In this document: one piece after another, positions 37,345 through 53,515 of the stretch | Layout: each line of letters opens with the position of its first letter | Position numbering within the stretch: position 1 is the first letter of the stretch | NCBI GenBank assembly: GCA_031261485.1 | Contig: JAISJO010000068.1 | Span: forward strand, 1-64,000 | Direction: 5' to 3' | Length of the DNA: 64,000 nt | DNA from: Propionibacteriaceae bacterium | GTDB lineage: Bacteria > Actinomycetota > Actinomycetes > Propionibacteriales > Propionibacteriaceae | Notes under the pieces: model-generated | What the model saw: only the letters and a program-made list of their open reading frames with translations | What the model was told of the DNA's origin: nothing | Database searches by the model: none | Program-made: the position numbers and the translations under genes

Positions 37345-38048
37345 GAGAGGTCCTCACTTGACGAGGGCTGGTCCGTGTCGGACTCATTGGCGCTGGAGAA
37401 TGTCGGTCTGGAGTCAGCGAGGGCTGGCTCGAACTCAGGGACGACAGTGGCCTCGGGCCTTACCGAATAACCCGGCGTCCCAGCTTCAGACAGCGGGCGG
37501 GACTCATACCGCACATCGACCACAGTCAACCCACGCACGAAATCCACCTTGTCCACGCGCATATCAACGACGGGCGCGCCCAGAATTGCCTCGACCTCGC
37601 GGGCCAACTCAGACTGGTCGGCGCTGGCATGTGCGAGGGTGAGGGTCAGTTTGGAGATAGGGCTTGGGGTGAGCGGACTCGCCGTCCGAGAGTCCGCAAT
37701 TGCGATGACAACAACGATGAGCGCCATGAGTCCCGCCGACAGCCAGCCATGGTAGGCGCCCAGCCCACCGATGACACCCAAGGCCAAAGCGCAGAAGTAG
37801 TACGCGATCTCGCGCTGGCTCAGCGTCTCACTCCTCAGCCTGACAAGGGCAAGGACGCCGAACAGGCCGAAACCGATACCTGCGTTGATAGGAGTGGCGG
37901 ACAGGGCGATGGCCACGCCCATGACACCGACGTTGACCGCCAGGTACGCCATCGTCAGGTCGCGGCGACGATAGCGGCGGTAATACAAGACGAGGGCGAG
38001 CACGCAGATGGCGATGACATCGGCGAGGGGAACGAGTACTTGAGTCAT
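37341..38048 (-). CDS. DUF4956 membrane protein
   Basis: 235 residues with six predicted membrane helices (residues 5-150) and a soluble C-terminal domain. Family features: the N-terminal LADVIAICVLALVLYYRRYRRRD and TPINAGIGFGLFGVLALVRLRSETLSQREIAYYF match DUF4956. In many genomes DUF4956 is next to VTC-domain polyphosphate or CotH-type kinase genes and a carbohydrate-binding protein; here only the last is present. The ATG at 38048 is preceded by a full AAGGAGG site. Confidence 0.88.
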   Translation of the reverse strand: MTQVLVPLADVIAICVLALVLYYRRYRRRDLTMAYLAVNVGVMGVAIALSATPINAGIGFGLFGVLALVRLRSETLSQREIAYYFCALALGVIGGLGAYHGWLSAGLMALIVVVIAIADSRTASPLTPSPISKLTLTLAHASADQSELAREVEAILGAPVVDMRVDKVDFVRGLTVVDVRYESRPLSEAGTPGYSVRPEATVVPEFEPALADSRPTFSSANESDTDQPSSSEDLS

Positions 38049-38183: not shown

Positions 38184-38327
38184 AGGGGATGTGGGGAGTT
38201 CGGATGGTGCAGGCTTGGGCGCAAATCGTCCCACCGATTTGGGGGCCCATAGTGGAGCGAGGCGATATTATGGCGCAGCCATCGCCTCGTGGAACGACCT
38301 GCACCATTCGAACTCCCCACATCCCCT
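38184..38327. repeat. 144-bp element with 30-bp inverted ends and inner hairpins
   Basis: Arms 38184-38213 and 38298-38327 pair over 30 bp with a single mismatch (start AGGGGATGTGGGGAG). Inside, AAATCG/CGATTT (38223-38240) and CGAGGCGAT/ATCGCCTCG (38258-38289), with a nested TGGC/GCCA, form two more hairpins. The fold is a branched, tRNA-like or long-stem shape. No coding frame. Confidence 0.75.
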
Positions 38328-38361: not shown

Positions 38362-38386
38362 AGGGTCATCCCCCACTGGCCTGGCT

Positions 38387-38525
38387 GACTTTGACCTTTT
38401 CCGCCCGATATCGAGGCCAGTGGGCGAAGTTGGATCAGAGTTGGGCCGTTTCAAGCCAAGAATCGGGCTGACTTTGCACCTACATCGTGCGGCGCCAGGA
38501 AAATCGCACGGACATGGCCAAAGTT
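38387..38525. repeat. interspersed 139-bp repeat with inverted ends, copy 2
   Basis: GACTTTGACC at 38387 and GGCCAAAGTT at 38516 are the inverted ends. CGAAGTTGGATCAGAGTTGG (offset 38), ACTTTG (offset 84) and AAATCGCACGGA (offset 114) match copy 1 at 9999-10138 with the same spacing. Confidence 0.65.
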
Positions 38526-38540
38526 GGCCCCGGTCGTGCC

Positions 38541-52949: not shown

Positions 52950-53515
52950 TGTCCTCTCCTTTCAGTCAGGGGGCGCACAACTGTCGTCGTCGTGCGAAAT
53001 GGTTCTTCAATGAACATAGGTTCACTCTCCAATCGAGTTGGTAGGGAAGTGCTGGCTGATGCTGGGAGTCGCCGCAGTGTCAGGCGGCATGGGAAGACCG
53101 CCCGACCCTGGGTTCCGACGACTCGCATGATTAGTCAGTGGTTCCCTAGAGGGAAGTACTTCAGGGTTCCGACCGGACTCGCATGGGTTTACGGGCAAAG
53201 CCACCCTGAGGCGAGAGTCACTGTACGCACGCACTTGGCGATGACTTCCTGCTCTCTGGGTCACTTTGCCCGCGACTCAGGTGTGCTCAACTCGGGGATA
53301 AGTGTCTCTGCCGAGGTCCGTGCGTACTGCCACTAAGTTGAGTAATTCCAGATAATGGGTGCACTAAGGTTGCCGAAAAAGGTCCCCTCTGAGAACCATC
53401 AGCCTTTCCCCACCGAATCGCCGACTGGCGTGCTTGCGATAGGCTCGACTTCACCAAGGGAAGCGCTGACCTAGCTGATGTGTCAGCGGTTCCAAAGTAC
53501 CTCGGGAGGCAAATC
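52950..53515. other. 566-bp divergent intergenic region
   Basis: Lies between the minus-strand surface-protein gene and the plus-strand gene at 53516. A 20-22-bp direct repeat (53110-53129 and 53164-53185) flanks a 14-bp inverted repeat. No frame with good codons or ribosome site is supported. Promoters for both flanking genes should lie here. Confidence 0.65.
53110..53185. repeat. direct-repeat pair enclosing an inverted repeat
   Basis: Direct copies of GGGTTCCGAC(CG)GACTCGCATG at 53110-53129 and 53164-53185 differ by a 2-bp insertion. Between them lies TTCCCT-AG-AGGGAA (53142-53155), preceded by the CAGTGG motif seen in the composite repeats. Confidence 0.55.

Follow-up and report, generated by a model that had tools for sequence, protein, structure and literature searches.

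A dispersed family of palindromic repeats with a conserved branched fold in Propionibacteriaceae

The stretch of Propionibacteriaceae DNA analysed here (64,000 nt, referred to as the window) carries at 38184-38327 one copy of a palindromic repeat family which we name element A. Members of the family are scattered and insert as whole units, and their stem sequences change without loss of a common branched fold, in which a long stem ends at a junction from which hairpin 1 and hairpin 2, the latter bulged, emerge. Element A is probably a non-autonomous mobile palindromic repeat resembling MITEs, REPs or Rickettsia palindromic elements (RPEs), and would be handled by an enzyme supplied in trans which recognises one folded single strand. 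Small palindromic repeats of bacteria are usually either short REPs or repeats with constant ends and a link to a known transposase. Element A reverses this pattern, with a fixed branched core and freely changing but matched arms. Its range covers three genera, and two copies lie within ABC-ATPase proteins, extending palindromic insertions into proteins to the actinobacteria, a phylum assigned here by protein hits. Its approximately 35 full-length compensated variants constitute a natural experiment on movement as folded single-stranded DNA or RNA.

The window copy and its surroundings

A previous sequence-only reading of the window had described 30-bp arms with one mismatch and two inner hairpins, and these lie exactly where it placed them. 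The features are as follows, the + strand being that which reads CAAATCG..GATATTATGGCGCAGCC.

38184..38327, + strand: element A, whole palindrome (window copy)
38184..38213, + strand: left arm, 30 bp
38200..38206, + strand: variable block of the left arm, 7 bp, TCGGATG
38216..38249, + strand: branch 1, hairpin 1 closed by the stem TGGGC/GCCCA
38222..38241, + strand: hairpin 1, CAAATCG-TCCCAC-CGATTTG, its seven pairs invariant in 12 of 12 aligned copies
38257..38290, + strand: hairpin 2, with a 5-nt bulge (TATTA) and a C(GCA)G triloop, both seen again in other species on different stems
38298..38327, + strand: right arm, 30 bp
38305..38311, + strand: variable block of the right arm, 7 bp, CATTCGA

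The arms are paired at 29 of 30 positions, with one G·T, and hairpin 2 reads GCGAGGCGA..TGGC-GCA-GCCATCGCCTCGT. No credible gene was found over 38184-38327, in agreement with the earlier reading. The fold z-score is -9.8 as DNA and -10.6 as RNA, and no shuffle was equally stable. Element A is also the sole palindrome of the 64-kb window with arms of at least 20 bp, at most one mismatch and a span of at most 230, the longest arm in block-shuffled control windows being 16 bp. Fold z-scores and window-wide search together rule out a chance palindrome.

On one side of the copy, an ABC transporter operon encoded on the - strand (SBP_bac_3, BPD_transp_1 and ABC_tran) ends; on the other, a DUF4956 gene begins, most likely at an ATG near 38048 which follows a AAGGAGGT ribosome site. 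No terminator-like, T-run or sigma-70-like site was found in this intergenic region by a search covering sigma-70-type promoters. A second repeat family (C; CTTTGG..CCAAAG-like, 68-80% alike) occupies window positions 38380-38530. It occurs at about 20 places in the genome, with matches on both strands, and also adjoins element A on contigs C53, C84, C104 and C20.

Dispersed copies, insertion and nesting

In the genome to which the window belongs (G000), a DNA search gave 23 matches, a tally which includes the palindrome's own arms, and identified approximately 19 copies of element A, 12 near-complete and 7 truncated or interrupted. Among the latter, C53b is truncated at its right end, C100 and C45 are split by an insert, C73 is cut by a contig end, and C20, C42 and C70 are right-hand fragments whose starts lie within hairpin 2, a base or two apart. 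The near-complete copies are intergenic, between divergent, convergent or co-directional genes as called by a simple purpose-made gene finder, and have no fixed orientation. Copies are about 145 to 240 bp long and include no transposase gene. Their ends carry asymmetric marks, an A before the left end and CCCA after the right, the latter present at the right flank of 13 of 30 copies versus about 2 in background windows. A search for target duplications revealed no consistent one: over 23 copies, direct repeats of at least 4 bp numbered 8, compared with 5.4 in shuffles. The C70 copy has a 6-bp direct repeat, TCAGGA. On C28, the right arm of the copy (L003) is succeeded at C28:38696-38825 by a tandem array whose units, of about 40 bp and CACGCCCCCGTCTGTACTGCTTCATACCGCATTACC-like, are similar to the outer part of that arm; repeats with a looser likeness to the arms come after the copies on C45, C52, C104 and C20.

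Homologues were sought with covariance models. The first, R1, had 8 matches, all in G014, and did not match any of the 55 other relatives. R2, built from these G014 matches, gave 15 in G014 and 2 in G015, both species of the same genus. Among 117 genomes of the family (9 of this genus), R2 identified element A in G104 (6 matches) and G144 (1), which represent two further genera; no element A was found in the 106 other family genomes sampled, where the filters were stricter and weak matches were possibly lost. An order-level sample of 24 genomes was scanned with R1 only. The covariance search proposed in the earlier reading has yielded copies, with compensating changes, and the existence of other copies and homologues refutes a chance or locus-specific relic. 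The patchy distribution suggests horizontal spread or repeated loss.

Two copies lie within genes, neither of them in G000. In G014, element A continues the reading frame of a double ABC ATPase of 613 aa, within its interdomain linker, where a stretch of about 57 residues is mostly or wholly absent from the homologues of eight relatives (G001, G002, G003, G004, G005, G006, G010 and G017), all of which align on both sides. In G104, a different double ABC ATPase has an in-frame copy in its linker, and the G014 homologue of this protein lacks most of the segment. The two copies are translated from opposite strands. These in-frame segments, missing from relatives, indicate that element A inserts. 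Since the linkers vary, the ends of the two insertions are placed approximately and not to the exact nucleotide. For intergenic copies, no match in relatives was usable as an empty site because the flanks are too diverged.

Further evidence is provided by nesting. In G000, the copies on C100 and C45, at unrelated loci, are both interrupted at one and the same point by a 165-bp insert whose two versions are 95% alike. Named element B, this insert is itself palindromic and has solitary copies on C28 (C28:50337) and C68 (C68:940). Solitary element B, of about 165 bp, has TA at both ends, and the A+B composites share small end changes missing from the solitary copies. The simplest history would be that B inserted into A once and that the composite then moved or was converted. 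A shorter, diverged relative of element B, a TAGGGAA..TTCCCTA palindrome, lies at 53042-53148 of the window. In G014, the element A copies at L263 and L266 (contigs C222 and C78), which are from different subfamilies, contain the same kind of insert of about 76 bp in the hairpin 2 bulge (GCGAT^AAGATCC), a further nested palindrome. Together, the dispersed copies, the in-frame insertions missing in relatives and the composite nested at two loci support the small mobile element which the sequence-only reading had put forward among other possibilities.

A fixed core, changing arms and a strand preference

Alignment of 12 G000 copies shows a core of about 95 bp (GCAGGC to CCTGC) which is nearly invariant, flanked by arms which vary between copies yet stay complementary. 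Three parts were distinguished in each arm: an outer one (GTGGGCAGT-like), a block measuring 5, 7 or 9 bp, and an inner one (GTGCAGG-like). Differences between pairs of copies affect 61% of positions in the arm block, 22% in the outer part and 10% in the core. The variable block is nearly randomised between copies and pairs almost perfectly within each of them. Double-sided changes occur in 21 of 56 pairs, a number matched by 0 of 500 shuffles, a test inflated by the relatedness of the copies; in a control which retains this relatedness, sliding the partners by 1-3 columns lowered the paired cells from 97% to 31-44%.

Two comparisons separate the histories of arms and core. Between the composites C100a and C45, the arm blocks have 9 differences in 14 positions, and core and insert together have 17 in 262 (Fisher p = 2e-7); in G104, unlike arms flank two cores which agree at 140 of 142 positions. 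Evolution of the arms is therefore faster than that of the core or uncoupled from it, a disparity which arm rebuilding at each move, or core conversion, would explain. These two comparisons, like the excess of differences in the arm block over the core, are also in line with a history without selection on the arms, in which repair or replication copies one arm onto the other (quasi-palindrome correction) and gene conversion maintains core identity. We consider this improbable, since repair alone predicts neither the strand-biased mismatches of G000, G014 and G015 described below nor hairpin 2 stems which are compensated across genera around a fixed bulge and triloop. The idea that the core jumps into pre-existing "empty" palindromes with the same outer arms was rejected: the pattern hits were near chance and none was palindromic beyond the ends searched for.

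The same branched fold is found in the homologues of G014, G015, G104 and G144. Between species, the stem sequence of hairpin 2 changes while its bulge (GATAAGAT-like) is kept. A C(GNA)G triloop closes hairpin 2 in all G000 copies and in nearly all those of G014, G104 and G144, the exceptions being G015 and one G014 copy. In hairpin 1 of G014 and G015, AAATCG recurs and its pairing partner is retained in most copies.

Mismatches in the arms favour one strand. On the + strand of the element, the ratio of G·T to A·C is 10:3 in G000, 17:1 in G014 and G015 together and 14:2 for copies oriented antisense to the gene next to them, and there is no G·T excess in G104 (5:9); as the copies are related, neither these counts nor those of the pairs are independent. 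This bias, which includes the antisense copies, supports, and does not prove, that the constrained strand is the element's own and not that of the host mRNA. It is relevant to another explanation, that the copies are unremarkable stem-loops at the ends of genes, stabilising or terminating the host mRNA and maintained by selection on it. Several G014 and G015 copies do begin at most 15 bp from a stop codon, and two G015 copies lie between a transporter gene and the next gene. These two (L242 and L245) occupy similar transporter-type operons, with gene roles judged by eye, right after the stop codon of one gene and before the next. Such positions between genes are where stabilising hairpins of the malE-malF type occur. 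Nevertheless, the pairing bias follows the element's strand even where host mRNA carries the opposite one, several copies lie between divergent genes, the region of the window copy has no T-run or terminator, and neither a core conserved in sequence nor copies inside genes would be expected, so that we regard this explanation as highly improbable.

Structured RNA was another possibility raised in the sequence-only reading, and it stands to the extent that compensating changes show pairing to be maintained, which alone supports it. In its fuller form, the repeats would be the multiplied genes of a structured non-coding RNA family whose branched transcript has a role in the cell or is the mobile form, dispersal being secondary. 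The compensatory changes, the bulge and loops conserved across genera and the excess of G·T on one strand regardless of the direction of the neighbouring gene would all fit such a family. However, no sigma-70-like promoter or terminator lies near the window copy in a search restricted to that promoter type, orientation and gene context are not fixed, copies inside genes on either strand and many truncated copies have the look of a mobile repeat, no Rfam family matches, and reverse transcriptase is absent from the G014 assembly. A multiplied RNA gene is thus unlikely. G·T pairs are tolerated by RNA and single-stranded DNA alike, and in DNA a C-G closing pair gives GNA loops unusual stability; the triloop type and the asymmetric ends would together favour single-stranded DNA over RNA.

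Candidate machinery and comparison with known systems

For a non-autonomous mobile repeat, we propose that an enzyme supplied in trans may recognise one folded single strand through the core hairpins, the arms being free to drift provided that pairing holds. Based on the asymmetric end marks and the C(GNA)G triloops, a first guess for the mover would be a putative hairpin-guided transposase acting on single-stranded DNA, HUH/IS200-like or an analogue. After landing, the element would form a stable intergenic stem-loop or be translated as a protein linker. The complete scheme, a mobile element recognised by shape and not by the sequence of its ends, with a folded DNA strand as intermediate, fixed core hairpins as address, arms which diversify or are rebuilt at each move, spread across genera, in-frame entry into genes and a putative hairpin-processing enzyme, is tentative and rather unlikely to hold in every part.

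Candidates for this machinery were examined. Y1 transposase genes number five in G014 and four in G012, and none was found in G000 or G015; reverse transcriptases are present in G000 and G015. Neither is co-distributed with element A, and both were rejected as common machinery. No convincing element A lies beside the Y1 genes of G014. Inverted repeats of 16-45 bp, some containing GGGGACGGT, stand on either side of Y1 genes at L195, L199 and L203 in a TIRtron-like arrangement (PMC3733652). GGGACGGT, at some G014 and G015 arm ends, resembles the inverted repeats around the G014 Y1 genes, a weak lead as it is short and absent from most copies. Searches for a phage or plasmid origin gave no match, and three viral contigs matching a 24-nt pattern failed the covariance model. 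No parent insertion sequence of element A was found. The lack of a co-occurring transposase and of a consistent target duplication, together with G104 having no G·T excess, are points against the mobile reading. Neither Rfam 15, at gathering score, nor a limited full-text literature search provided a described family matching element A, which is provisionally undescribed.

Among known repeats, RPEs are summarised in PMC10969869 (citing Ogata et al. 2000, 2002) as palindromic repeats of about 150 bp, several per genome, some in frame in unrelated genes, and as encoding a conserved peptide. Measured against this description, element A is similar in size, in having several copies per genome and in inserting in frame into genes, and differs in that it has no conserved peptide, its two copies in genes are read from opposite strands, most copies are intergenic and the phylum is different. 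QMITE2 of Coxiella has inverted repeats of 23-29 bp and a core of 113-145 bp (PMC10969869). Like it and other MITEs with terminal inverted repeats, element A is of this size range, has no ORF of its own, is dispersed and could give a long-hairpin transcript; unlike in MITEs, its inverted ends vary between copies while still pairing, and no consistent target duplication was found.

REP, REPIN and TIR repeats are moved by Y1 tyrosine transposases, and REPs are 20-40 bp long with a GTAG or CGTC tag (PMC3116915, PMC3733652, PMC8266576). Element A shares with REPs imperfect hairpins, an intergenic location with occasional copies in genes and a proposed recognition as single-stranded DNA. In contrast to them, it is about 145 bp long, branched and without a GTAG or CGTC tag at its ends, two of its host genomes (G000 and G015) have no Y1 gene, and none of those in G014 adjoins it. 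The stem-loop containing sequence families (SLS; PMC2267715) are likewise repeated foldable bacterial sequences, although SLS is only a descriptive class. Since element A lacks a defining trait of each of the narrow classes MITE, REP and RPE, we keep it in the broad kind of non-autonomous mobile palindromic repeats, in which it is placed by its dispersal at unrelated loci, its insertion compared with uninterrupted relatives and its lack of an internal transposase.
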